This document shows, one piece after another, positions 38,159 through 64,000 of a DNA stretch of 64,000 nt. Below the pieces are notes generated by a model, which saw only the letters and a list, made by a program, of their open reading frames with translations, did not search any database and was not told the origin of the DNA. This DNA comes from Anniella stebbinsi (lineage: Eukaryota; Chordata; Lepidosauria; Squamata; Anniellidae). Location of the stretch: assembly GCA_029215795.1 (NCBI GenBank), contig JARDYH010000003.1, positions 16,470,001 to 16,534,000 of the forward strand, written 5' to 3'. Numbering within the stretch: position 1 is the first letter of the stretch; each line of letters opens with the position of its first letter. The translations under genes were made by a program, and so were the position numbers.

Positions 38159-40209
38159 TAGGGATGTGCACTGGATCGGACCCGATCCACGATCCGAGTC
38201 CGGTCCAGTGGGAAATCGGATAAATTATCCGATTTCCGATCCCGCAGCTGGATCGGCCGATCCAATCCGAACCGGTCCGAAAAAGCTCCGAACCGGTTCG
38301 GCGGATCGGCGGATCGGCGGGCGCCCACTGGCGCCCACCGCCGCTTCCATTGGCGGGCGCCAGCGGGCGCCCGCCGATGAAAGTGGACAGCGGGGGGGGG
38401 GGAGGAGGGGGGCACTTACCTTCTCGGCCCGGTGGCTCCCGTCCGGCGCCGGAGCCTACTACTACTAGCAGGCTCCGCGGCCTGCTCTAGGGTGGCGCGC
38501 CGGGTGATGTCATCACCCGGCGCGCTACTCTAGAGCAGGCCGCGGAGCCTGCTGGTAGTAGTAGGCGCCGGCGCCGGACGGGAGCCACCGGGCCGGGAAG
38601 GTAAGGAGGGGGTGCGTGGAGGGGAGGAGGGGGCGCGCGGAGGGGGGAGGGGGGCCCTTACCTTTCCGGCCCGGCGGCTCCCGTCCGGCGCCGGCGCCTA
38701 CTATTCCCAGCAGGCTCCGCGGCCTGCTCTAGGATGGCGCGCCGGGTGATGTCATCACCCGGCGCGCTACTCTAGAGCAGGCCGCGGAGCCTGCTGGAAG
38801 TAGTAGGCGCCGGCGCCGGACGGGAGCCGCCGGGCCGGAAAGGTAAGGAGGGGGTGCGTGGAGGGGAGGAGGGGGCGCGCGGAGGGGGGAGGGGGGCCCT
38901 TACCTTTCCGGCCCGGCGGCTCCCGTCCGGCGCCGGCGCCTACTATTCCCAGCAGGCTCCGCGGCCTGCTCTAGGATGGCGCGCCGGGTGATGTCATCAC
39001 CCGGCGCGCTACTCTAGAGCAGGCCGCGGAGCCTGCTGGAAGTAGTAGGCGCCGGCGCCGGACGGGAGCCACCGGGCCGGAAAGGTAAGGAGGGGGTGCG
39101 TGGAGGGGAGGAGGGGGCGCGCGGAGGGGGGAGGGGGGCCCTTACCTTTCCGGCCCGGCGGCTCCCGTCCGGCGCCGGCGCCTACTACTCCCAGCAGGCT
39201 CCGCGGCCTGCTCTAGGATGGCGCGCCGGGTGATGTCATCACCCGGCGCGCCACTCTAGAGCAGGCCGCGGAGCCTGCTGGAAGTAGTAGGCGCCGGCGC
39301 CGGACGGGAGCCGCCGGGCCGGAAAGGTAAGGAGGGGGTGCGTGGAGGGGAGGAGGGGGCGCGCGGAGGGGGGAGGGGGGCCCTTACCTTTCCGGCCCGG
39401 CGGCTCCCGTCCGGCGCCGGCGCCTACTACTCCCAGCAGGCTCCGCGGCCTGCTCTAGGATGGCGCGCCGGGTGATGTCATCACCCGGCGCGCTACTCTA
39501 GAGCAGGCCGCGGAGCCTGCTGGAAGTAGTAGGCGCCGGCGCCGGACGGGAGCCGCCGGGCCGGAAAGGTAAGGAGGGGGTGCGTGGAGGGGAGGAGGGG
39601 GCGCGCGGAGGGGGGAGGGGGGAGGGGGGCCCTTACCTGCCCGGCCCGGCGGCTCCCGTCCGGCGCCGGCGCCTACTACTACCAGCAGGCTCCGCGGCCT
39701 GCTCCAGGGTGGCGCGCCGGGTGATGTCATCACCCGGCGCGCTACTTGAGAGTAGGCCGCGGAGCCCGCTGGTAGTAGCCGCCGGCGCCGGACGTGCCGA
39801 GAAGGTAAGTGGCGGGGAAGGGGGCTTACCCCCCCCCCGGAGCCGTCCGCTTCTATCCGCTGGCGCCCGCGGGCGCCAGCGGATGGAAGCAGGCGGCCCC
39901 AGGGGGGGTAGGGAGCGCGGGGGAGGGGGTTTACCTGCCGGGGCCGTCCACAGCGGACGGCCCCGGGGGGGGGAGGGAGTTAGGCCCCCCCTTACCCACC
40001 CGCCGCCATTTTTTCCTCATAGACTTGCATTGCAATGCAAGTCTATGGGGAAAAAAATGGCGGCCGATCCAAAAATGTACGATTTTTGGGTCGGGATCGG
40101 ACTCGATCCGGTCCGGGGGGCCTCCGATTTTGTCCGAACCGGTCCGGGACAAAATTGGAGGTCCCGATCCGGGTCCCGATCCGATCCGGGGGGTCCGTGC
40201 ACACCCCTA
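38159..40209. mobile_element. Palindromic hAT element C with six tandem palindromes
   Basis: 2051 bp; left TAGGGATGTGCACTGGATCG, right inverts to TAGGGGTGTGCACGGACC. Perfect 8-bp TSD ATCAACAG at 38151-38158 and 40210-40217. Subterminal GATCGGATCC/CCGATCCG arrays. The middle (about 38400-39830) is six CpG-rich palindromic units centred on TGATGTCATCA at 38505, 38747, 38989, 39231, 39473 and 39722 (period 242, 242, 242, 242, 249). Near the right end is a CATAGACTTGCATTGCAATG hairpin followed by AAAATGGCGGCCG (40010-40068). Non-autonomous; the long frames inside are repeat by-products. Confidence 0.93.
38400..39830. repeat. Tandem array of 242-bp palindromic units
   Basis: Each unit pairs CTCCCGTCCGGCGCCGGCGC and GCAGGCTCCGCGGCCTGCTC with their inverses around GGGTGATGTCATCACCC. 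GGAAAGGTAAGGAGG lies on one side and its inverse on the other, so a GTAAG donor-like motif occurs on both strands of each unit. Units are nearly identical. Confidence 0.9.
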
Positions 40210-42245: not shown

Positions 42246-42415
42246 CTAAAAGACTGTAATGCCTCCCCTAAGGCTTAGGCAGGATCTACACTACTGCTTT
42301 AAAACGGTTTAAAATGGTTTATAACAGTAGTGACAACTAGGGATGTGTATCTTATTCCTATGTCCGATAACGAACCGATAAGGTCATTATCAGACATCCG
42401 ATTAATGATAATGAT

Positions 42416-45251
42416 TAGGGGTGTGCATCGGATCGGATCCGATCCACGATCCGAATCCGATCCGACCCAAAATCGGGAAAATCCGATCCGATCCGATCCG
42501 ATCCGGCCAACCTCCGATCCGATCCGATCCGATGAGGTCCGATCCGGATCGGACGCCATTTTGAATGCTTTTTCCCATAGCCAAGTATTGTTTTACAAAA
42601 ACGCCTATAACTTTTTCATTTTTAAAGATAGAAGGATGAAACTTGGGCACATTGTAGACTGGTTAGGGGTAGTTATCTGTGAGAAATTTCAGAAAGATTG
42701 GTGCATGCATTTTGTGGCAATTAATTTTTTAATAAATACCCAGGAATGCCTATAACTTTGTCATTTTTAAAGTTACACACATGACACTTTGCCACATTGT
42801 AGGGGGTACCTTGGGACCTATGTGTGTAAAATTTCAGAAACGTAGGTGCTTGTCTTGTGTGGCAATTAATTTTTAGAAAAATGGGTAGTAGTGGGGTAAA
42901 TACAGTTACGCCTCCCATTTTTTTATTTTTGAAGATACAAACAGGAAACTTGGGCACATTACAGGTACCACTTGCCTTGATATGTGTGTGAAATTTCAGA
43001 AACATTGGAGCTTTCCTTGTGTGGCAATTAATTTTTGAAACAATGAGGAAAGAAACACCTATAACTTTGTCATTTTTAAAGTTACACACATGAAACTTTG
43101 CCACATTGTAGGTGGTACCTTGGGACCCATGTGTGTGAAATTTCGGAAACGTAGGTGCTTGCCTTGTGTGGCAATTAATTTTTTAATAAATACCCAGGAA
43201 TGCCTATAACTTTGTCATTTTTAAAGTTATACACATGAAACTTTGCCACATTGTAGGCGGTACCTTGGGACCTATGTGTGTGAAATTTCGGAAACGTAGG
43301 TGCTTGCCTTGTGTGGCAATTAATTTTAGAAAAATGGGTAGTGGTGGGGTAAATACAGTTACGCCTCCCACTTTTTTATTTTTGAAGATACAAACAGGAA
43401 ACATGGGCACATTACAGGTACCACTTGGCTTGATATGTGTGTAAAATTTCAGACAGCTGGGTCCAGGCATGTGGTGGCAAGGTATTTTTGAAACAATGAG
43501 GAAAGAAACGCCTATAACTTTTTTATTTTAAAAGTTAGAAGTCTGAACATTGCTCACTTTGTAGATGGGTTAGGGGTAGATATGTGTCAGAAATTTCAGA
43601 ATTATAGGTCCAGGCATTTGATGGCTATGGAATTTTTAAATTACATGTTTCAAAAAAATTTCTACAGAGGCCAGGTCTTCCCCTCCCGCTTCCCGCGAAG
43701 AAAAGGAAACACTCTCTCGTCTCGATCCCTTTGATCCTTGCTAGTAGTATCCATTACAGGGCTCGTGTTTCCTTTCCTACTTTCACTTTTCAAGCAGAAC
43801 GGCTGAGCCTAGCTGAGTTTTGCAGCCATGCGTGCAAGGAAGGATCACTCTGGTCTCGATCCCTTTGATCCTTGGTAGTATCCATTACAGGGCTCGTGTC
43901 TGCTTTCACTTTGTACTCAAGCAGACACGAGCCCTGTAATGGATACTACCAAGGATCAAAGGGATCGAGACCAGAGTGATCCTTCCTTGCACGCATGGCT
44001 GCAAAACTCAGCTAGGCTCAGCCGTTCTGCTTGAAAAGTGAAAGTAGGAAAGGAAACACGAGCCCTGTAATGGATACTACTAGCAAGGATCAAAGGGATC
44101 GAGACGAGAGAGTGTTTCCTTTTCTTCGCGGGAAGCGGGAGGGGAAGACCTGGCCTCTGTAGAAATTTTTTTGAAACATGTAATTTAAAAATTCCATAGC
44201 CATCAAATGCCTGGACCTATAATTCTGAAATTTCTGACACATATCTACCCCTAACCCATCTACAAAGTGAGCAATGTTCAGACTTCTAACTTTTAAAATA
44301 AAAAAGTTATAGGCGTTTCTTTCCTCATTGTTTCAAAAATACCTTGCCACCACATGCCTGGACCCAGCTGTCTGAAATTTTACACACATATCAAGCCAAG
44401 TGGTACCTGTAATGTGCCCATGTTTCCTGTTTGTATCTTCAAAAATAAAAAAGTGGGAGGCGTAACTGTATTTACCCCACCACTACCCATTTTTCTAAAA
44501 TTAATTGCCACACAAGGCAAGCACCTACGTTTCCGAAATTTCACACACATAGGTCCCAAGGTACCGCCTACAATGTGGCAAAGTTTCATGTGTGTAACTT
44601 TAAAAATGACAAAGTTATAGGTGTTTCTTTCCTCATTGTTTCAAAAATTAATTGCCACATAAGGAAAGCTCCAATGTTTCTGAAATTTCACACACATATC
44701 AAGGCAAGTGGTACCTGTAATGTGCCCAAGTTTCCTGTTTGTATCTTCAAAAATAAAAAAATGGGAGGCGTAACTGTATTTACCCCACTACTACCCATTT
44801 TTCTAAAAATTAATTGCCACACAAGACAAGCACCTACGTTTCTGAAATTTCACACACATAGGTCCCAAGGTACCCCCTACAATGTGGCAAAGTTTCATGT
44901 GTGTAACTTTAAAAATGACAAAGTTATAGGCATTCCTGGGTATTTATTAAAAAATTAATTGCCACAAAATGCATGCACCAATCTTTCTGAAATTTCTCAC
45001 AGATAACTACCCCTAACACGTCTACAATGTACCCAAGTTTCATCCTTCTATCTTTAAAAATGAAAAAGTTATAGGCGTTTTTGTAAAACAATACTTGGCT
45101 ATGGGAAAAAGCATTCAAAATGGCGTCCGATCCGGATCGGACATCTGGTCCGATCCGATCCGACCAGCCTCCGATCCGATCCGATCCGACCCCCCAGGTC
45201 CGATTCCGATCCGCTATCCGATCCGATCCGGGGGGTCAGTGCACATCCCTA
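42416..45251. mobile_element. Element A: 2.8-kb near-perfect foldback hAT element
   Basis: Ends TAGGGGTGTGCATCGG and inverse of TAGGGATGTGCACTGACC. Perfect 8-bp TSD ATAATGAT at 42408-42415 and 45252-45259. Left arm 42416-43905, 13-nt loop 43906-43918, right arm 43919-45251. Arms are nearly identical; the left has one extra ~145-bp repeat unit. From each end inward: GGATCGG/GATCCGATCC array, AAAATGGCG motif, six or seven 144-163-bp units, then a CTTCGCGGGAAGCGGGAGG-type core. No transposase frame. Frames of 127 and 88 codons are mirrored in both arms and are simply the repeat read twice. Confidence 0.96.
42603..43620. repeat. Seven ~145-bp repeat units, left arm of A
   Basis: Units start near 42603, 42749, 42912, 43059, 43203, 43365 and 43511 (spacing 144-163). 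Each begins like CCTATAACTTTGTCATTTTT, then ATGAAACTT.G.CACATTGTA, GTGTGAAATTTC and TTGTGTGGCAATTAATTTTT. The right arm has six of them inverted. Confidence 0.9.
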
Positions 45252-52720: not shown

Positions 52721-53774
52721 ATATGTGTAAAGGCAGGGACTCTTTTTATTGCTCTGGGAATCTTTTTGACCAAAGAACTGGATAAAAATACTTTAAAACA
52801 CACACACAAAGAAGCACTTTGAATCTACTGCCAATCCAATTCTTTGGATAAGACCAAGACAGGAGGAAAAAACTCTCTACTCACTTTCTCCACATCATAC
52901 TTACGCTTATAAACCATTCATGCTGGACCACACACACATTAGTGCAGGGTTCTTTAGTGCAAGGCTCAAGGGCCACTGGTGTCTCCCACTCACCTCCAAT
53001 GCATCTTCTGCCTCTCCCCCTTACTCTCAGCAGGGGCTCCCTCACTTTGCCTTGTTGCTTGTTTTCGTGGCATACTGGCAGCTGTGATCTGAGCTACCAG
53101 AGGAGGTTTTGGGGCTGGGTACGGAGCATTCCCTTAAGGTTCTTCTCCACATGGGGCTTTTATTCCCTGATTGAGATTGGTTACTCATGGACGTTTGTGG
53201 GTCCTCAAGCACTCCTTTCAGGGTTTTCAAGCATTTCCGTGGCTTAATTTGAAGTGTAAATAATGAGCTAACAAAAAATCTGCTTTTATTTAGTCTGGCT
53301 TAGTAAATGAAAAGAGGAAGTGGCGCTATATGAGAACAGCACCATCTAGTGGCTGTACAATGAAACATGCAGAACTCACAGATAAAAGGGGAAAAGGTGT
53401 GTGCATTGCAGGGGAGCTCATGTAAAGGACTGCTCTTAATCCTGCAAAGAACCTGGAAGTAGAAGCTCTGGTAAAATCACAGGATAAAAAGCCTCAGTGT
53501 AGAGAAGCCCTTTGTGATGGGAAAAAGATCTATCACAATCCAAGGACCAAGAGAGCCTGTTGGAATTTGCCTGCCTAGTGACTGACTGAGGCTTTGCTTG
53601 GATGGTAGAGTGATGGGGAGGAGAGAGTCCAAAGGTCTCCAGGCGGATCTGGTGCATGGTATTGCCTCTTGACTGAGGGGGAAGATGAGAAGTGTCCCCG
53701 GGGCCTAGCAAGGCCCCCCTAGTGCTCTTGGTAGTGGTGACTAGAGCCAAACTGGCTCCTGCTTGAGAAATAAT
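52721..53774. other. No recognisable gene; left flank of the candidate giant hAT element
   Basis: No domain or exon recognised. The last 8 bp before 53775 are GAAATAAT, the predicted left TSD. Confidence 0.4.
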
Positions 53775-53925
53775 TAGGGATGTGCACTGACCCCCCGGAT
53801 CGGATCGGATAGCGGATCGGAATCGGACCTGGGGGGTCGGATCGGATCGGATCGGATCGTGTGTCGGATCGGATCGGATCCGATTCCGATCCGCGGATCG
53901 GATTTTCCGATCCGGATCGGACGCC
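53775..53925. promoter_or_regulatory. hAT terminus and GGATCGG subterminal array
   Basis: Terminal TAGGGATGTGCAC followed by many overlapping GGATCGGATCGG/CCGATCCG motifs. By analogy with subterminal transposase-binding repeats of Ac-like elements, this is a plausible binding zone. No experimental support is visible from sequence alone. Confidence 0.6.
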
Positions 53926-53969
53926 ATTTTGAATGCTTTTTCCTATAGCAAATTATTGTTTTATAAAAA

Positions 53970-54870
53970 CGCCTATAACTTTTTCATTTTTAAAGACAGA
54001 AGGATGAAACTTGGGCACATTGTACACTGCTTAGGGATAGGTATCTGTGAGAAATTTCAGAAAGATTGGTGCATGCAGTTTGTGGCAATTGATTTTTTAA
54101 TAAATAACATGGAATGCCTATAACTCGGTCATTTTTAAAGTTACACACATGAAACTTTGCCACATTGTAAGTGGAACCGTGGGACCCACGTGTGTGAAAT
54201 CCCAGAACCGTGGGTGCTTGCCTGGTGTGGCAATGAATTTTTGAAAAATGGGTAGTAGTGGGGTAAATGCAGTTATGCCTCCCATGTTTTTATTTTTAAA
54301 GATACAAACAGGACACTTCGGCACATTACAGGGAACACTTCCCTTGATATGTGTGTAAAATTTCAGACAGCTAGCTCCAGGCATGTGTTGGCAATGAATT
54401 GTTGAAAATTGGGTAGCAGTGGGGTAAAATACAGTTTTGCCTCCCATTTTTTTATTTTCAAAGATACAAACGGGAAACTTTGGCACATTGCAGGGAACAC
54501 TTCACTTCAAATGTGTGTGAAATTTCCGGAAGCTAGGTGCAACATTTTAGTGGGAAACGAACGTTTATTCATGGCATTTCACATGGGATTTATGGGTTGG
54601 TTTGAAGAGCTACAAAGCTCTAACTCGCTCACATGGCACAGGACCTATGCCCGCTCAAACGCTGGAAATTTCACAAACTTTGGTGCAATGCTTTAGTGGG
54701 AAAACAAAGGTTTATGCATGGCATTTCACATGGGATTTATGGGTTGGTTTTAAGAGCTACAAAACTCTAACTCGCTCACATGGCACAGGACCTATGCCCG
54801 CTCAAACGCTGGAAATTTCACAAACTTTGGTGCAATGCTTTAGTGGGAAAACAAAGGTTAAACTTTATTA
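53970..54870. repeat. ~145-bp repeat array, single-arm version
   Basis: Units near 53972, 54116, 54282 and 54439 match those of element A. Two further diverged units of 148 bp follow (TTTCACATGGGATTTATGGG at 54573 and 54721; CTCGCTCACATGGCACAGGA in both). No inverted second arm follows, unlike element A. Confidence 0.85.
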
Positions 54871-55223
54871 TTTTAAACCTTCAGGAAGGGGACATTGCCT
54901 GCCTGGTGTGGATTGGTAATGAGGGAAGAAAGTTTCACTTATTCATTTGTAAAATGTAAAGTGATTGTAAATTGCTTTAGGGACCCATACATTTACATGA
55001 CAAGACAGGTGTTGGTTGCAGGAATGCTACCAAATGCACTAGTAGCTAATCCCAGGTAATAGCTATTCAGATCCTAGCTAATAGCTATTATTCAGATCCT
55101 AGCCTGGGAAGGGATCTTGCAGGATAAGTGATTGTTCTTTTCTTGTGTAGTATGTAATTCTAAACCAGAAGGCTGCTTTGATGTAGAGCCAATCCACATG
55201 GTCTCTTGCAGCACCTAGTATTA
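54871..55223. other. No gene; short local duplications
   Basis: TAGCTATT.CAGATCCTAGC occurs twice near 55062-55105. Otherwise nothing recognised. Lies just 3' of the predicted minus-strand transcript end. Confidence 0.4.
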
Positions 55224-55229
55224 TTTATT
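55224..55229 (-). terminator. AATAAA polyadenylation signal
   Basis: TTTATT on the plus strand, AATAAA on the minus strand, overlapping the stop codon of the predicted terminal exon. Confidence 0.45.
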
Positions 55230-58200
55230 TCTCCTTCCACAGCAGAATCTGGAAGGCGGGCAGGCAGGCTGGCATCCAGGGCAAAGTCCAACAGCGGCAT
55301 TGGGGACTGGGTGACATTCTCCTTGAGGGCGAATGCCAAGTCCCATGGCTTGTGCGAGGAGGGCGGCTTGCTCTCTTTGCAGGAAGGATCTGGAAGGCGG
55401 CAGGCGGCATCAGCAGCGGGCGGGCAGGCTGGCATTTAATGGGCAAAGTCCAACAGCGGCGTTGGGGACTGGGTGACATTCTCCTTGAGGGCGAATGCCA
55501 AGTCCCATGGCTTGTGCGAGGAGGGCGGCTTGCTCTCTTTGCAGGAAGGATCTGGAAGGCGGCAGGCGGCATCAGCAGCGGGCGGGCAGGCTGGCATTTA
55601 ATGGGCAAAGTCTCTCCTTTCCCGGGCACTGTGGCAGTGAGAGTGCCATAGGCTGCAAAAGAAGAAGGGGGGGAAAAAAGAATGAATATTAGTTGACCAC
55701 TTCAACACAACCAGCTCCCTTCCACCCAGGATTGCCCTTCCTGAGTGCCCACGCCCCAGCAGGCACACGGGGCTGCCTGCTCACTCGGAAGTTAGCAGGC
55801 AGACAGCCAACCTTCAGTTAGGTGGAAGGTGCCCCCCCCCATTCACAGAACACTTACCGTAGTCCTCCTGAGGGCGTTGTTGATAAGATGCCACTTCCAG
55901 GCGGGCAGTGACGGGCAGGTGGGCAGTCTGCATTACCGTCTCTCCTGGGCACTGTGGCAAAGAGTTCCATAGGCTGCAAAAGAAGAAGGGGGGGGGGGGA
56001 AGAATATGAGAAAAATGATACTTTTCCACCACTGGCTCCCTCCCACCCAAGACTGGCATGTGCCCGGTCCTGAGTGCCCACGCCCCAGCAGGCACACGGG
56101 GCTGCCTGCTTGCTTACTCGTGGGTAAGCTGTCTGACAGGCTCTTACCAGAGTCGTGCGGGCGACGTGAATCGATGGGCCACCTCCATGCGGCCGTGGCT
56201 GGGGCAGATGGGCAGTCTGGATTCACGGGTGCGCTTTGCGCAGTGGCGAAGAGTTCCATAGGCTGCAAAAGAAGGAGGGGGGGGGAAAGAATGAATATTA
56301 GTTGACCACTTTAACACAACCAGCTCCCTTCCACCCAGGATTGCCCTTCCTGAGTGCCCACGCCCCAGCAGGCACACGGGGCTGCCTGCTCACTCGGAAG
56401 TTAGCAGGCAGACAGCCAACCTTCAGTTAGGTGGAAGGTGCCCCCCCCCATTCACAGAACACTTACCATAGTCCTGAGGGCGTTGAGGACTCGGTGAGAT
56501 TCTCCTGGAGGACCCCTAGTCCCATGGCTTGTGCAAGGAAGGCGGCTGGCCCGCCTCGCAGGAACGATCTGGAAGGCGGCAGGTGGCATCAGCAGCGGGC
56601 GGGCAGGCTGGCATGTAATGGGCAAAGTCTCTCCTTTCCCGGGCACTGTGGCAGTGAGAGTGCCATAGGCTGCAAAAGAAGGAGGGGGGGGGGGAAAGAA
56701 TGAATATTAGTTGACCACTTTAACACAACCAGCTCCCTTCCACCCAGGATTGCCCTTCCTGAGTGCCCACGCCCCAGCAGGCACACAGGGCTGCCTGCTC
56801 ACTCGGAAGTTAGCAGGCAGACAGCCAACCTTCAGTTAGGTGGAAGGTGCCCCCCCCCATTCACAGAACACTTACCGTAGTCCTCCTGAGGGCGTTGTTG
56901 ATAAGATGCCACTTCCAGGCGGGCAGTGACGGGCAGGTGGGCAGTCTGCATTACCGTCTCTCCTGGGCACTGTGGCAAAGAGTTCCATAGGCTGCAAAAG
57001 AAGAAGGGGGGGGGGGAAGAATATGAGAAAAATGATACTTTTCCACCACTGGCTCCCTCCCACCCAAGACTGGCATGTGCCCGGTCCTGAGTGCCCACGC
57101 CCCAGCAGGCACACGGGGCTGCCTGCTTGCTTACTCGTGGGTAAGCTCTCTGACAGGCTCTTACCAGAGTCGTGCGGGCGACGTGAATCGATGGGCCACC
57201 TCCATGCGGCCGTGGCTGGGGCAGATGGGCAGTCTGGATTCACGGGTGCGCTTTGCGCAGTGGCGAAGAGTTCCATAGGCTGCAAAAGAAGGAGGGGGGG
57301 GGAAAAATGAATATTAGTTGACCACTTTAACACAACCACCTCCCTTCCACCCAGGATTGCCCTTCCTGAGTGCCCACGCCAAAGCAGGCACACGGGGCTG
57401 CCTGCTCACTCGGAAGTTAGCAGGCAGACAGCCAACCTTTAGTGAGGTGGAAGGTGCCCCCCCCATTCACAGAACACTTACCGTAGTCCTGAGGGCGTTG
57501 AGGACTCGGTGAGATTCTCCTGGAGGACCCCTAGTCCCATGGCTTGTGCAAGGAAGGCGGCTGGCCCGCCTCGCAGGAACGATCTGGAAGGCGGCAGGCG
57601 GCATCAGCAGCGGGCGGGCAGGCTGGCATTTAATGGGCAAAGTCTCTCCTTTCCCGGGCACTGTGGCAGTGAGAGTGCCATAGGCTGCAAAAGAAGAGGA
57701 GGGGGATAATGAATATTACATAAATACTTTTATACTGCAAAAGAAGAAAGGAAAATAAATAAAGATTTGTATTAATTAATACATGCAAGTCCTAGTAACT
57801 AGTCTCCCACCGGCACACTTCTCTTGTTTGTGATGCAATCCTCTTTCTCCTGCTGCACCCCTCCCTTTCTAAATCACTCTTCTGAGCCCATTGTTAGAGG
57901 GATTGGCTATCCTTTTGTGTCTGGCAGGACACAGCTTACCGGATCATTAGAGAATCACCATTTCTTTTGTCCTTGGGTTATTCATTCACTCCTAATAGCA
58001 CCCTACGTTAGGCTGACCAGATCAAATCCAGGTCAGGGTTCCTAACTTCAGCAGTTGTAGAGAAAAGGGAATTTCTGCCAGTGTCATTTGTATGGAATTA
58101 GTTCCTGCTGAGATTCCCTCTTCATCACAACAGTTAAAGGTGCAGGGGCCCTGCCTTCTTTTCTATATGGCCACTCTGCCTGCACTCTTACCTGAGTCGT

Positions 58201-58570
58201 AGGGGTGACGTGAATCGAGGGGCCACCTCCATGTGGCCGTGGCTGGGGCAGATGGGCAGTCTGGAATCACGGGTGCGCTTTGCGCAGTGGCGAAGAGTTC
58301 CATAGGCTGCAAAAGAAGGAGGGGGGGGAAAAGAATTAACATGAGATAAATCATACTTTTCCACCATTGGCTCCCTCTCACCCAGGACTGGCATCTGCCC
58401 GGTCCTGAGTGCCCACGCCCCAGTAGGCACACGGGGCTGCCTGCTTGCTTACTCGGAAGTAAGATCTCAGACTGCCCCACTTCTGGACACTCTCAGGTGT
58501 CCCTGCGTTGACTGCACACACTTACCTTATTCGTGCGGCCGCTGTGGATCGGAGGACTCCAGTGGCACAT
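55224..58570 (-). CDS. Hypothetical multi-exon gene built from duplicated 115- and 203-bp exons
   Basis: Minus-strand splice signals define small exons: acceptors read CTTCTTTTGCAG|CCTATGG and donors read G|GTAAG. Model: start ATG 58570-58568 in an exon ending 58526; 58306-58192 (115 bp); 57684-57482 (203); 57279-57165 (115); 56669-56467 (203); 56262-56148 (115); terminal 55652-55225, stop TAA, with AATAAA overlapping at 55229-55224. 115-bp exons enter at phase 0 and leave one base; 203-bp exons take two bases and return to phase 0, so the whole model is open for 407 codons. The terminal exon holds a 162-bp internal duplication. The product is rich in P, R, S and A, with no domain I know. The start has a weak context and the real first exon may be elsewhere. 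Two 116-bp exons would break the frame and are left out. Could equally be a non-coding spliced RNA. Confidence 0.35.
55265..55614. repeat. 162-bp tandem duplication
   Basis: GGACTGGGTGACATTCTCCT ... GGCTGGCATTTAATGGGCAA occurs twice, offset 162 bp (54 codons). This preserves the reading frame of the predicted terminal exon. Confidence 0.9.
55858..55973 (-). other. Frame-breaking 116-bp exon candidate, copy 1
   Basis: Acceptor CTTCTTTTGCAG|CCTATGGAAC at 55973 and donor GACTACG|GTAAGTG at 55858. Inserted after a 115-bp exon it reads to a TAA within 16 codons. It may be skipped, a stop-containing alternative exon or a relic. Confidence 0.45.
56876..56991 (-). other. Frame-breaking 116-bp exon candidate, copy 2
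   Basis: Same sequence and splice signals as 55858-55973, one cassette upstream on the minus strand. Confidence 0.45.
58009..58176. mobile_element. Left-arm fragment of palindromic hAT MITE in an intron
   Basis: TAGGCTGACCAGATCAAATC, GTCATTTGTATGGAATTAG and GTTAAAGGTGCAGGGGCCCT. It lies in the enlarged (507-bp) intron between the 58192 and 57684 exons. Confidence 0.8.
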
Positions 58571-59574
58571 AGGCTCCTCCAGGCAAAGTCACATTGGCAT
58601 AGGCTCCTCCAGGCAAAGTCACATTGGCATAGGCTCCTCCAGGCAAAGTCACATTGGCATAGGCTCCTCCAGGCAAAGTCCCAGTGGCACATAGGCTCCT
58701 CCAGGCAAAGTCACATTGGCACAGGCTCCTCCAGGCAAAGTCACATTGGCACAGGCTCCTCCAGGCAAAGTCACAGTGGCACATAGGCTCCTCCAGGCAA
58801 AGTCACAGTGGCATAGGCTCCTCCAGGCAAAGTCACGTTGGCATAGGCTCCTCCAGGCAAAGTCACAGTGGCACATAGGCTCCTCCAGGCAAAGTCACAT
58901 TGGCACAGGCTCCTCCAGGCAAAGTCACAGTTTGGCACAGCTCCCTCCAGGCAAAGTCCCAGTGGCAGAGGCAAAGTCCCAGTGGCACAGGCTCCTCCAG
59001 GCAAAGTCACAGTTTGGCACAGCTCCCTCCAGGCAAAGTCCCAGTGGCACAGGCTCCTCCAGGCAAAGTCACATTGGCACAGGCTCCTCCAGGCAAAGTC
59101 ACAGTTTGGCACAGCTCCCTCCAGGCAAAGTCCCAGTGGCAGAGGCAAAGTCCCAGTGGCAGAGGCAAAGTCCCACTGGCAGAGGCAAAGTCACAGCTGC
59201 ATGGGCCCCTCCAGGCAAAGTCCCAGTGGCAGAGGCAAAGTCCCAGTGGCAGAGGCAAAGTCCCACTGGCAGAGGCAAAGTCACAGCTGCATGGGCCCCT
59301 CCAGGCAAAGTCCCAGTGGCAGAGGCAAAGTCCCAGTGGCAGAGGCAAAGTCCCACTGGCAGAGGCAAAGTCACAGCTGCATGGGCCCCTCCAGGCAAAG
59401 TCCCAGTGGCAGAGGCAAAGTCCCAGTGGCAGAGGCAAAGTCCCACTGGCAGAGGCAAAGTCACAGCTGCATGGGCCCCTCCAGGCAAAGTCCCAGTGGC
59501 AGAGGCAAAGTCCCAGTGGCAGAGGCAAAGTCCCACTGGCAGAGGCAAAGTCACAGCTGCATGGGCACCTCCAG
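58556..59574. repeat. 30-bp and 20-bp tandem array with 90-bp higher-order repeat
   Basis: Left part: units like GGCTCCTCCAGGCAAAGTCA of 30-36 bp. Right part: 20-bp AGAGGCAAAGTCCCAGTGGC units arranged in a 90-bp superunit marked by GCTGCATGGGCCCCTCC at about 59196, 59286, 59376, 59466 and 59556. Because 90 (and the 30-bp units) are multiples of three, several frames stay open on both strands, including 355 codons at 58716-59783. These are not evidence of a gene. Confidence 0.9.
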
Positions 59575-59576
59575 GC

Positions 59577-60275
59577 AGGCAGGCGGGCAGAGGCAGAGGC
59601 AGAGGCGGGCATGATGCCAGGCGCTTGCGCATTGCACAAGTAAGCAATAGAACCGTGAGACCAGCCAACGCATTCCGGCTACTTCACAATGGCGGCAACC
59701 TAGCAGGCGGGCAGGCAGGCAGGCAGGCAGGGGCAGAGGCAGAGGCGGGCATGATGCCAGGCGCTTGCGCATTGCACAAGTAAGCAATAGAACCGTGAGA
59801 CCAGCCCACGCATTCCGGCTACTTCACAATGGCGGCAACCTAGCAGGCGGGCAGGCAGGCAGGCAGGCAGGGGCAGAGGCAGAGGCGGGCATGATGCCAG
59901 GCGCTTGCGCATTGCACAAGTAAGCAATAGAACCGTGAGACCAGCCCACGCATTCCGGCTACTTCACAATGGCGGCAACCTAGCAGGTGGGCAGGCGGGC
60001 AGGCAGGCAGGCAGGCAGAGGCAGAGGCGGGCATGATGCCAGGCGCTTGCGCATTGCACAAGTAAGCAATAGAACCGTGAGACCAGCCCACGCATTCCGG
60101 CTACTTCACAATGGCGGCAACCTAGCAGGCGGGCAGGCGGGCAGGCAGGCAGGCAGGCAGAGGCAGAGGCGGGCATGATGCCAGGCGCTTGCGCATTGCA
60201 CAAGTAAGCAATAGAACCGTGAGACCAGCCCACGCATTCTGGCTACTTCACAATGGCGGCAACCTAGCAGGCGGG

Positions 60276-60310
<35 letters not shown>

Positions 60311-60885
60311 AGGCAGAGGCAGAGGCGGGCATGATGCCAGGCGCTTGCGCATTGCACAAGTAAGCAATAGAACCGTGAGACCAGCCCACGCATTCCGGCT
60401 ACTTCACAATGGCGGCAACCTAGCAGGCGGGCAGGCGGGCAGGCAGGCAGGCAGGCAGAGGCAGAGGCGGGCATGATGCCAGGTGCTTGCGCATTGCACA
60501 AGTAAGCAATAGAACCGTGAGACCAGCCCACGCATTCCGGCTACTTCACAATGGCGGCAACCTAGCAGGCGGGCAGGCAGGCAGGCAGGCAGGGGCAGAG
60601 GCAGAGGCGGGCATGATGCCAGGCGCTTGCGCATTGCACAAGTAAGCAATAGAACCGTGAGACCAGCCCACGCATTCCGGCTACTTCACAATGGCGGCAA
60701 CCTAGCAGGCGGGCAGGCGGGCAGGCAGGCAGGCAGGCAGAGGCAGAGGCAGAGGCGGGCATGATGCCAGGCGCTTGCGCATTGCACAAGTAAGCAATAG
60801 AACCGTGAGACCAGCCCACGCATTCCGGCTACTTCACAATGGCGGCAACCTAGCAGGTGGGCAGGCGGGCAGGCAGTTTTTTAAA
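59577..60885. repeat. Nine ~142-bp promoter-like monomers
   Basis: CATGATGCC marks nine units at 59610, 59750, 59890, 60032, 60174, 60330, 60472, 60612 and 60760. Each has a constant ~110-bp core with GGCGCTTGCGCATTGCAC (NRF1-like) and CACAATGGCGGCAACC (close to the YY1 consensus), then a variable (GGCA)n linker. The core also holds GCACAAGTAAGCAATAG, a donor-like site on the plus strand. Resembles tandem promoter monomers of some retrotransposons in layout only. Lies between the transposase (downstream side) and the predicted exon cluster (upstream side). Confidence 0.85.
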
Positions 60886-61456
60886 TCATATAGCCAAAAT
60901 AAACACAACACACAGTGACAGCCCTGCAAGGCTGCCACATAAGTCCAAAAGACACAGTCAGAAACAGTGTGGGATGCTGCTTGTCATCCACTCAATGTAG
61001 GAGCCTGGAAGAGGAATCCTATCGCGTCCTTCGTTCATAGTCAGAGAGGTGCATGCGTTCCTTGGCGATAAAATTAAGCCTTCTTCTTATCCAAAGTTCT
61101 CATGAGCCTCTGACGTGGTCTTACAAGAAGAAACGCCCATGGAAGTGTGGGACCTTACAGAAGGCCTGGAGGGAGCCATCGGAGTCCAATTTCAGAGGCA
61201 CACGTGCAAGCACATTGGTTCAAGTCAAACAACATAGAATGTGTGAGATGCTTGTGCATCCCCTCAATGTAAGAGGCTAGGAGAAGAAACTAGATCCCTT
61301 CGGGATCCATCGTTCAGAGTTGAGTTACTGAGCTGTAAACAACACAGCCAGTAAATTAAAGTAAAGAAAATTAATTAACCGAAAATAAGAATTAAAAAAT
61401 CAAGGGCCTGCCGGTGCCTGCCCAAAGGTGTGGGATGGATGGGGGGTGCCTGCCAA
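60886..61456. other. Spacer with an imperfect ~80-bp direct duplication
   Basis: 60967-61045 (GTGTGGGATGCTGCTTGTCA, CCACTCAATGTAGGAGCCTG) is repeated at 61239-61325 (GTGTGAGATGCTTGTGCATC, CCCTCAATGTAAGAGGCTAG). Holds the 3' flank of the transposase; I see no clear AATAAA on the minus strand here. Confidence 0.6.
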
Positions 61457-63985
61457 TTACTCCCCCGCGGGCATGAGGGTGGGGTATCCCAGCAGGGGCA
61501 GATTGACCTTGAGGAAGACCAGCTGCTCCACAATCTCAGCGTCCAAGCGAGAGCGGTGGGGTGTGACCACGTCGCCCGCCATGGAAAACACCCGCTCGCT
61601 TGGAACGCTGGACGGTGGGCAGCTGATTCTGTCCATGGCCACCCGCGCCAGATCAGGCCACATCTGGCGCCGAGATGACCAGTAGGCCAGGGGTTCGATG
61701 GAGCCGTCCTCCATCTGCTCCGCCAGGTAACGCTGCACTGCTGCTGCAGCGTCATCCTGGCGGCGGCTGGGTTGAGTGCCTCTATGCCCAACCGCAGCCT
61801 GCAAAGCCTTGTCCCAAAACCCCTGGCCTGTCCCCCTGCTGGGTGTGGTGGTGCTGGTGCCGCCGCTGCTGGTGGTGCTCAGCGGACTTAGCGCCTGGGC
61901 TTCGGTGGGCTCCTCCTCTGCCTGCCCAATCCTGGCATCCCGGGCCGCCCGAACGTCCGTCACCAGCATTTCCACCCAACCTGCCCGGGAAGTCTGCCCA
62001 CATAACCCATCCTTGATGCGCGGGTCGCACATGGTGGCCAACATGTACTGCCTCTCGTTGTAGAGAGGCTGGACCCGGCGGGATAGGCTTTCCCTCAGCC
62101 TCGTCACCACTTCCCGCACCTCTGGCAGGAAGCGCCTGCCGGTGACGGCATCCCCGGCCTCCAGAAACTCGCCCATCTGATTCTGGAGATGCCTGGCCAC
62201 GGGGAGCACCTGGCTGAGAAGGGCAGTGCTGCTGCTCAGGGTCTCGGTGGCCTCAAGGAACGGCTTGAGGACCACCAGAAGCTGGGACATGGCCTCCCAC
62301 TGCTGCCTGGACAGTGGGGCCTGGATGCCAATGTCCCCGACCCTGAACATCTCGTGGACAACACGCTGTTGCTCCACCATACGCTCGAGCATGTGGTAGG
62401 TGGAGTTCCAACGTGTTGCCACGTCCTGCACTAGCCGGTGCTGCGGAAGTCCCAGCTCCTGCTGCTTCTCCCGCAGCAACCGACTGCCCTTCACGCTGTG
62501 GTGGAAATGCCCAGCCACCTTCCTGCAGCTCTCTAGGAGATTACGGATTTGGGGAGGGAGAGGGGCCTTGCTGCCTCCAAGGCCATCCCTGACGACCAGG
62601 TTGAAGACGTGCGCGATGCAGCGGATGCCCTCAAATCCGCCATCGCGCACCGCCTTCAGCATATTGGCTCCCCCGTCCGTGACCATGTAACCGCGGGTGT
62701 GCTGGTGCCCGCCCAGCCACCCTGCCACCATGCGGTTCATGGCCTCCGTAATCTCCTCCGCCGTGTGGGACTGGTCCATGACTGCGGTATGAAGGAGGGC
62801 CCAGCGGCAGCCCTCCTTCCCAGTCCCAGAAGTCCTGGGTGCTTCCTGCCCTGAGGCTCCCCACCAGTGAGCCGTCAGGGACAGGTAAGCGTGCACTCCT
62901 CCTTCGCTGGACCAGATGTCCGAAGTGAAGTGCACCTTCTGTGCCTCTGCCTGGCACAGACGACCCAGAACTAACTCCCTGCATGCCTGGTACAGGGAGG
63001 GCACCACACGCCTGCTCAGGGTGGTGCGACACGGCGGCTTGTAGTATGGAACCACAAGAGCCATCAGCCTCTTGAAGCCTGCGTTCTCGACGAGGCTGAA
63101 TGGCTGGTCATCCAACGCCACCATCTCACCGATGCAATTGGTGATCTGGTTGGGCGCTGGAAAACGCCACCTTGTGGCTCCATACTTCCCCCACCCCATC
63201 TCTTCCATGGTGGCCTGGCGAAGCCTCTTGGGGATGGGAGGTCGAGAGCTGGCAGAAGTTGCAGGAGCCTTTTGCTTGCCCTTGCCGCTAGCACCAGTCT
63301 GCTGCGAGGTGCCCGCCTCGGTCCCAAGCAAAACAGACTGGTGGTGCCTCTGCATGTGGCGGGTGAGGTTCGTGGTGGTGAAGTGGCCTGGCATTTTTCC
63401 CCTGCTCACTGACATCTTGCAGTAGCGACAGACAGCAAAGCGGGAATCCACTGCCACCTCAAAGTGGTCCCACACCTTGCTTGCCTGTCGCTTCTGGGGT
63501 GACACAGACGGCCTGCCGGCGCCTTTGCTCTGTGGTGTCACCTCAGGAGCAAGGGAATGAGTGGAAGAGAGGACGGATTGTGGAGAGTAAGTCTCTGGTG
63601 CTGCCTGCTCTTCCTCTTGCCCCACATCAGAGTCCTCCTCCTCACTCTGAACCTCGCTGACTTCCACAAGATCTGGGAAAAGATCAGTCAGCGGGTTCAC
63701 AGGCTCACCCACCAAAGAAGGAGCTGGATATAGTGCTCCTTCTTCATGCCCACTGCTGCTCCCAGCACCTGCCTCATGTTGCTGAAAGAGTGCCCTGCAG
63801 GCACTACTTTGAGTTGCCTCTGCCTGCTTCTGCTGCCCCAGTGGAGAACGCCTCAGTTTAACTGGGGGTGTGGAAGTAGGCTGCCTGCTGCTGGTCCCAG
63901 CAGCAGCAGCAGCAGCGCCATGCCCAGAGCGGCCTCTCCCAAATGCTGCCTTGGGAGCACCCCCCCTTTGAGTGCCACGCTTCAT
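61457..63985 (-). CDS. hAT-superfamily transposase with BED zinc finger, intact
   Basis: 842 codons, ATG at 63985-63983, TAA at 61459-61457. Order: basic/alanine-rich N-terminus; acidic stretch about 111-128; BED zinc finger about 168-216 with C186, C189, H210 and H214/H215; RNase H-like core with D356 (HFTSDIWSS) and D437 (YMVTDGGANM); CIAHVFNLVV at 456-465; ATRWNSTYHML with W526; the large inserted helical region; E797 in PSSVPSERVFS; and the C-terminal dimerisation region to about 830 (RSRLDAEIVEQLVFLKVNL). All three DDE residues are present and there is no frameshift or stop. It would cut and join DNA at hAT termini, in the nucleus, as a multimer. Alternative: a domesticated ZBED-type host gene. 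The flanking tandem arrays and nearby hAT terminus favour a transposon. The start is near the window edge, so an upstream exon cannot be excluded. Confidence 0.93.
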   Translation of the reverse strand: MKRGTQRGGAPKAAFGRGRSGHGAAAAAAGTSSRQPTSTPPVKLRRSPLGQQKQAEATQSSACRALFQQHEAGAGSSSGHEEGALYPAPSLVGEPVNPLTDLFPDLVEVSEVQSEEEDSDVGQEEEQAAPETYSPQSVLSSTHSLAPEVTPQSKGAGRPSVSPQKRQASKVWDHFEVAVDSRFAVCRYCKMSVSRGKMPGHFTTTNLTRHMQRHHQSVLLGTEAGTSQQTGASGKGKQKAPATSASSRPPIPKRLRQATMEEMGWGKYGATRWRFPAPNQITNCIGEMVALDDQPFSLVENAGFKRLMALVVPYYKPPCRTTLSRRVVPSLYQACRELVLGRLCQAEAQKVHFTSDIWSSEGGVHAYLSLTAHWWGASGQEAPRTSGTGKEGCRWALLHTAVMDQSHTAEEITEAMNRMVAGWLGGHQHTRGYMVTDGGANMLKAVRDGGFEGIRCIAHVFNLVVRDGLGGSKAPLPPQIRNLLESCRKVAGHFHHSVKGSRLLREKQQELGLPQHRLVQDVATRWNSTYHMLERMVEQQRVVHEMFRVGDIGIQAPLSRQQWEAMSQLLVVLKPFLEATETLSSSTALLSQVLPVARHLQNQMGEFLEAGDAVTGRRFLPEVREVVTRLRESLSRRVQPLYNERQYMLATMCDPRIKDGLCGQTSRAGWVEMLVTDVRAARDARIGQAEEEPTEAQALSPLSTTSSGGTSTTTPSRGTGQGFWDKALQAAVGHRGTQPSRRQDDAAAAVQRYLAEQMEDGSIEPLAYWSSRRQMWPDLARVAMDRISCPPSSVPSERVFSMAGDVVTPHRSRLDAEIVEQLVFLKVNLPLLGYPTLMPAGE

Positions 63986-64000
63986 TTTATTTTTATTATT

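Follow-up and report, generated by a model that had tools for sequence, protein, structure and literature searches.

A giant, probably autonomous hAT transposon with a predicted, reshuffling 3′ exon array in Anniella stebbinsi

The DNA considered here is a stretch of 64,000 nucleotides from Anniella stebbinsi (assembly GCA_029215795.1, contig JARDYH010000003.1), termed the window, which corresponds to C3:16470001–16534000 in a genome of 1.89 Gb (C with a number denotes a contig). Towards its right edge lie a hAT-type terminus with GGATCGG repeats and an intact transposase frame on the minus strand, and between the two are several kinds of tandem array and a series of predicted exons (Table 1). 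A first-pass annotation of the window proposed that terminus and transposase are parts of a single hAT element of more than 10 kb that runs past the edge, and the sequence to the right of the window bears this out. The inverted terminus ends at C3:16535718 (window-equivalent 65718) and is directly followed by GAAATAAT, the same 8 bases that precede position 53775. Because this proximal end and the matching GAAATAAT are found beyond the edge, the terminus at 53775 and the transposase belong to one transposon, 11,944 bp in length, which reaches 1,718 bases past the window. As the annotation had stated, there is no opposite terminus between 53775 and the transposase at up to two mismatches, the sole match in that stretch being 53775 itself.

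Both ends read TAGGG(A/G)TGTGCA and are short terminal inverted repeats of the TAGGG/CAGGG type, the outer 12-mers of which match at 11 of 12 positions. The sequence GGATCGGATCGGATC occurs at 16 places in the window at one mismatch or fewer (0.00 expected). Starting about 65 bases inward, each end also carries a long internal inverted repeat of ~1.06 kb, with arms 95.7–97.2% identical in the four copies that were read whole; the C10 copy has a longer one, of 1.36 kb. It is very probable that the region from 53775 to 1,718 bases past the edge constitutes one complete, likely autonomous hAT transposon, which likely moves by cut-and-paste and carries a reshuffling predicted 3′ exon array that would likely limit transposase output.

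Table 1. Features of the giant hAT element and of related elements in the window (positions beyond 64000 are window-equivalent)
Feature	Position	Strand	Remarks
Left target-site duplication GAAATAAT	53767..53774	unstranded	right copy directly after 65718
Transposase-distal terminus TAGGGATGTGCA	53775..53786	+	reads TAGGGATGTGCAC at 53775
Subterminal GGATCGG-type repeats	53796..53914	unstranded	
Distal arm of long internal inverted repeat	53837..54892	+	~1.06 kb, 95.7% identical; contains 162-bp and 147-bp direct duplications
AATAAA	55224..55229	-	sole one on this strand from transposase ATG to distal inverted repeat
Predicted terminal exon	55230..55652	-	reaches poly(A) signal; built of 162-bp unit; coding not supported
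Seven predicted cassette exons	55858..58306	-	of 115, 203 or 116 nt, in three related types; acceptor TTTTGCAG and donor GTAAG in each
Individual cassette exons	58306-58192, 57684-57482, 57279-57165, 56991-56876, 56669-56467, 56262-56148, 55973-55858	-	
Interspersed-repeat copy	58008..58177	unstranded	in second predicted intron; kept in all four whole copies
30/90-bp tandem array (58571-59577) and short stretch after it	58526..59577	-	strong donor AAG/GTAAGT at 58526
140-bp tandem array	59572..60876	-	9 units in window copy
hAT transposase, single open frame	61457..63985	-	842 aa; BED finger 169-216, hAT dimerisation 752-828
Transposase-proximal end, TAGGGGTGTGCA inverted	65707-65718 (C3:16535707-16535718)		outside window
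2.8-kb palindromic nonautonomous relative	42416..45251	unstranded	target duplication ATAATGAT; both giant-element ends
2.0-kb palindromic hAT-like element	38159-40209		duplication ATCAACAG; ends 73-87% alike over short stretches

Three further copies were read whole, of 11,120, 11,368 and 12,737 bp, each with perfect 8-bp duplications, and the same holds for 13 more that were read at both ends, these being the 13 transposase starts that head the C1 list. Thus a perfect 8-bp target-site duplication is present in 17 of 17 copies, four of them whole. Their target sites fit the pattern nTnnnnAn, with T at position 2 in 15 of the 17 and A at position 7 in 13. Maize Ac likewise makes 8-bp duplications at nTnnnnAn sites, and by target pattern the element is Ac-like.

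A 27-mer at the transposase start has 608 exact occurrences in the genome, with none for a reversed-pattern control; the count demands an exact match and is thus biased to young copies. Another mark, a 30-mer close to the left end, is found 464 times. The annotation had asked whether the same left end always lies about 10 kb from other transposase copies, and on C1, where linkage was checked, the answer is positive, with that end some 9–11 kb away. All 80 left marks in the span covered by the list of starts are in register with a transposase start; an exact mark accompanies 80 of the 100 listed starts and is absent from 20. Element lengths estimated from these 80, which assume the offsets of the window copy, range from 7,670 to 13,608 bp with a median of 11,558. 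In the first 30.15 Mb of C1, an exact distal end is found 8.7–11.2 kb from the start in 13 of 13 cases, one of which has a second distal end as well, at 15.7 kb. A 29-mer of the distal end is present 5,050 times in the genome, and 87 of the 100 distal ends listed on C1 are not the nearest partner of those 13 starts; most of these likely belong to shorter nonautonomous relatives.

The long distance between terminus and transposase and the several unlike arrays lying between them might suggest a nested composite of different insertions. This is refuted, and retains next to no probability, by the matching duplications that span the whole unit in all 17 copies and by the constant linkage on C1.

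The transposase has a hAT dimerisation domain (PF05699, E 1.8e-15) and a BED finger (PF02892, E 2e-10), together with D356, D437, C456xxH459, W526 and E797, which we take to be the hAT catalytic motifs, read at the positions expected of a hAT transposase (E797 by motif). An AlphaFold2 model has a mean pLDDT of 66, with most core blocks at 72–94 and the first 167 residues below 50, and all 12 Foldseek matches in the PDB at E ≤ 0.001 are Hermes, so that the modelled fold is predicted to be RNase H-type and Hermes-like. Fifteen aligned relatives, of 27 found, are 25–52% identical to the transposase and include ZBED4-like proteins of Crocodylus, Anolis, caecilians and Hemicordylus.

Among 2,327 first-look candidates, the best 54 transposase matches were scored and all are full length and stop-free. 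An intact frame of 842 residues, or of 843 with one extra Tyr, is present in 10 of 12 copies sampled on C1 (list places 2, 6, 10, 14, 20, 30, 40, 50, 60, 70, 80 and 91, not a random choice). Sampled copies show 0–17 substitutions from their subfamily consensus across ~2,530 nt, the consensus of the 842-residue group taking in the 20 best loci of the genome transposase search, and the four whole copies are each 6–15 substitutions from their majority over ~9.6 kb, the arrays at 58560–60885 excluded. The transposase is complete and probably functional. Of 66 variant sites in 32 transposase copies, 40 are replacements and 26 silent, versus 71% replacement expected, and there are no stops; purifying selection on the transposase is weak at most. 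Two transposase subfamilies can be discerned, which differ by one Tyr at residue 86 and a few substitutions, the copies with 843 residues being L030, L031, L036, L037, L038 and L041.

Members of the hAT superfamily are described as 2.5–5 kb in length, with terminal inverted repeats of 10–25 bp and 8-bp duplications (PMC3942097). The Anniella element shares with them the 8-bp duplications, short terminal repeats, one transposase with a hAT dimerisation domain and nonautonomous relatives with the same ends, but differs in its size of 11–13 kb, more than double the usual figure, the ~1 kb internal inverted repeat at each end, the tandem arrays and the predicted 3′ exon array. The length of 2.5–5 kb is typical and not defining, and the four whole copies (11,120–12,737 bp) lie outside it; in every other hAT feature that was tested the family agrees, and judged by its sequences it is a giant, young, autonomous-looking hAT family. 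Maize Ac is much smaller, at 4.6 kb (PMC3260210). A large hAT-named element, the 14-kb ToxhAT, has been described in fungi (PMC12506042), but it is fungal and mobilises a cargo gene. No giant animal hAT appears among the titles and abstract openings listed in a literature search; Repbase and most subscription papers lie outside that search, so an existing entry is possible. The transposase resembles that of Hermes (PDB 4d1q, 2bw3, 8sjd) in predicted fold and in the D, D, E, CxxH and W motifs as assigned above, but it is only 17–18% identical and has ~165 low-confidence residues ahead of the BED finger. The closest named proteins are the ZBED4-like hAT proteins mentioned above, at 38–52% identity and with the same domains; these were compared as proteins, and several lack catalytic residues.

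Downstream of the transposase the element consists largely of repeats. Three kinds of tandem array had been noticed and are present (58571–59577, 59572–60876 and 55458–57705, the last being the exon array detected as a repeat); a fourth, of 162-bp units, is additionally found inside the terminal exon at 55256–55612. The 140-bp array has 6, 10 and 11 units in the other three whole copies. From its sequence, the donor at 58526 is predicted to be the end of an upstream exon, here exon 1. In 14 copies, TTTTGCAGCCTATGG is the sequence at each of the 81 detected acceptors, all 68 detected internal-exon donors have the GTAAG consensus, and the exon-1 donor is GTAAGT in 13. Copies carry 3–8 cassette exons plus the terminal exon, and these are dealt differently: 10 different exon series are present among 13 copies, and the terminal exon grows by the 162-bp unit. 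The last internal exon is of the 116-nt class in all 13 copies covered. In the four whole copies there is a constant order of 140-bp array, 30/90-bp array, cassette exons, 116-nt exon and terminal exon with AATAAA, and nine more copies covered to the end keep the exon part of it. The interspersed repeat in the second predicted intron recurs in the window at 1741, 13923, 28307, 34913 and other positions. An Rfam scan gave a single match, HOTTIP_3, whose 20.6 bits fall far short of the gathering score of 50 and which is taken as chance.

All 38 exon-1 donor marks within the C1 span have a transposase start upstream of them on the same strand, and for 37 of them the distance from start to donor is 4.0–7.8 kb. 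The exact donor pattern is found at 228 places versus 608 starts, and 62 of the 100 C1 starts are without it, as are all six sampled copies of 843 residues. As a marker of the array the exact pattern had to be rejected: the exon array is present in 8 of 8 fetched tails of starts that lack the pattern (L028, L029, L070, L072, L074–L077), and 228 is therefore a lower bound for exon arrays. At C4:20534402–20543875 exon-array matches are spread over ~9.4 kb, and from this spread some single elements may approach 20 kb.

The first-pass annotation regarded the exons as a second, spliced minus-strand transcription unit. The donors, acceptors and poly(A) signal are all there, but separateness from the transposase is doubtful. 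In all four whole copies, the interval from the transposase ATG to the final exon's end is free of AATAAA, and a scan for 12 poly(A) signal variants, confined to the 610 nt after the transposase stop, found none. Because no AATAAA separates them, we infer that the transposase transcript runs to the AATAAA at 55229 and that the exons are its 3′ part, which the sequence makes more likely than a second unit. There would thus be one transposase transcript with a reshuffling 3′ exon array, the exons of which are probably noncoding. The messenger RNA would start near a TATA-like site at window-equivalent 64462 and, having no poly(A) signal of its own after the coding frame, would read through the 140-bp and 30/90-bp arrays and be spliced through the cassette exons. 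Its stop codon would then lie far upstream of several exon junctions, so that any message in which the downstream part is retained would be open to nonsense-mediated decay, and such decay would damp the dose of transposase. Array length probably changes by slippage or by gap repair after excision. That the exon array damps transposase dose is the best guess at its role, and a tentative one.

Several observations weigh against this picture of an autonomous element with a functional spliced tail. The frame is lost in two of the 12 sampled transposase copies. The exon-1 donor is changed to GTAATT in L028, the first cassette acceptor is deleted in L029, and the acceptor search is blind to sites with more than two substitutions. 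ATTAAA is found inside most 203-nt exons and in the terminal exon, and an internal poly(A) site is possible. One exon-1 donor lies 21 kb downstream of its start (C1:227837277–227860300, L042, L043), which is unexplained and may represent a nested insertion or a very long array. The 140-bp array could hold the promoter of a separate unit. Finally, the copies are so young that conserved splice sites are only a weak sign of selection.

The arrays may instead be no more than passengers, satellite DNA trapped in an ordinary hAT element and functionless whether transcribed or not, a serious contender at somewhat less than an even chance. Array lengths vary widely while sequence divergence is near zero, and tandem duplication by itself can copy splice motifs; set against this are the order of arrays and exons kept in the four whole copies, its exon part in nine more, and the fact that the three exon types are many substitutions apart yet have donors and acceptors in common. 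Little credence is due to the idea that the tail contains an independent second gene, with its start in the 140-bp array, for a repeat-built accessory protein. Such a gene would be in keeping with a CpG ratio of ~0.4–0.6 in that array versus 0.35 in window positions 1–38000, although parts of the transposase frame have similar values, and with a terminal-exon frame that, in 12 of 13 copies, is uninterrupted until a TAA at the poly(A) signal, regardless of the number of 162-bp units. In-silico splicing of the four whole copies gives longest frames of 256, 167, 256 and 194 residues, lengths reached by 1, 9, 4 and 7 of 200 shuffles, but repeats inflate open frames more than shuffles model. With the 116-nt exons skipped, 407 codons are open from exon 1 in the window copy, but just 179, 146 and 210 in the other three. 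Exon lengths of 115, 116 and 203 nt shift the frame and exon order varies between copies, and therefore there is no common full protein. Eight of nine variant sites in the 162-bp unit alter a residue in the open frame, for which no homologue was found at E ≤ 0.001 among 571 candidates, and the five Pfam matches to three tail frames are all under curated cut-offs (the best, a bacterial leader peptide, at E 0.00021). After splicing, shuffles, variant counts and the homologue and Pfam searches, the tail as a gene for a conserved protein is unsupported.

The window also contains two palindromic elements, of which the giant element had been proposed as parent. For the one at 42416–45251 the shared ends stand: 70 of 70 bases are identical to the giant element at one end and the first 49 at the other. 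Descent from the present copies is unlikely, since its arms are just 83–91% alike and sampled transposase copies differ by less than 1%; by this comparison it is likely a cognate of the giant element that arose from an older version of it. The proposal fails for the element at 38159–40209, the ends of which are related to those of the giant element and not identical; to judge from them it is a more distant cousin family. Its tandem units, of 242 bp, contain a TGATGTCATCA palindrome as well as donor motifs of GTAAG type on either strand. A further hAT-like end (TAGGGATGTGTATC), at 42338–42415, borders the 2.8-kb palindrome on its left; the palindrome seems to sit as an insertion in the element to which this end belongs.

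As a rule, cut-and-paste transposons measure a few kilobases, and their short derivatives are numerous, their intact autonomous copies few. Here the unit is ~12 kb long, and a single genome contains its transposase hundreds of times; of the copies sampled, most are intact and near-identical. Perhaps a giant animal hAT meters its own transposase, with differently dealt exons acting as splicing ‘resistors’ that would let hundreds of autonomous copies accumulate without death of the host; this broader idea is rather unlikely. At least one of the window's long palindromes has its cognate in this element, which also supplies, for assay, both ends and a transposase that is complete and probably functional. 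It makes hAT size limits, copy-number control and array turnover directly testable.

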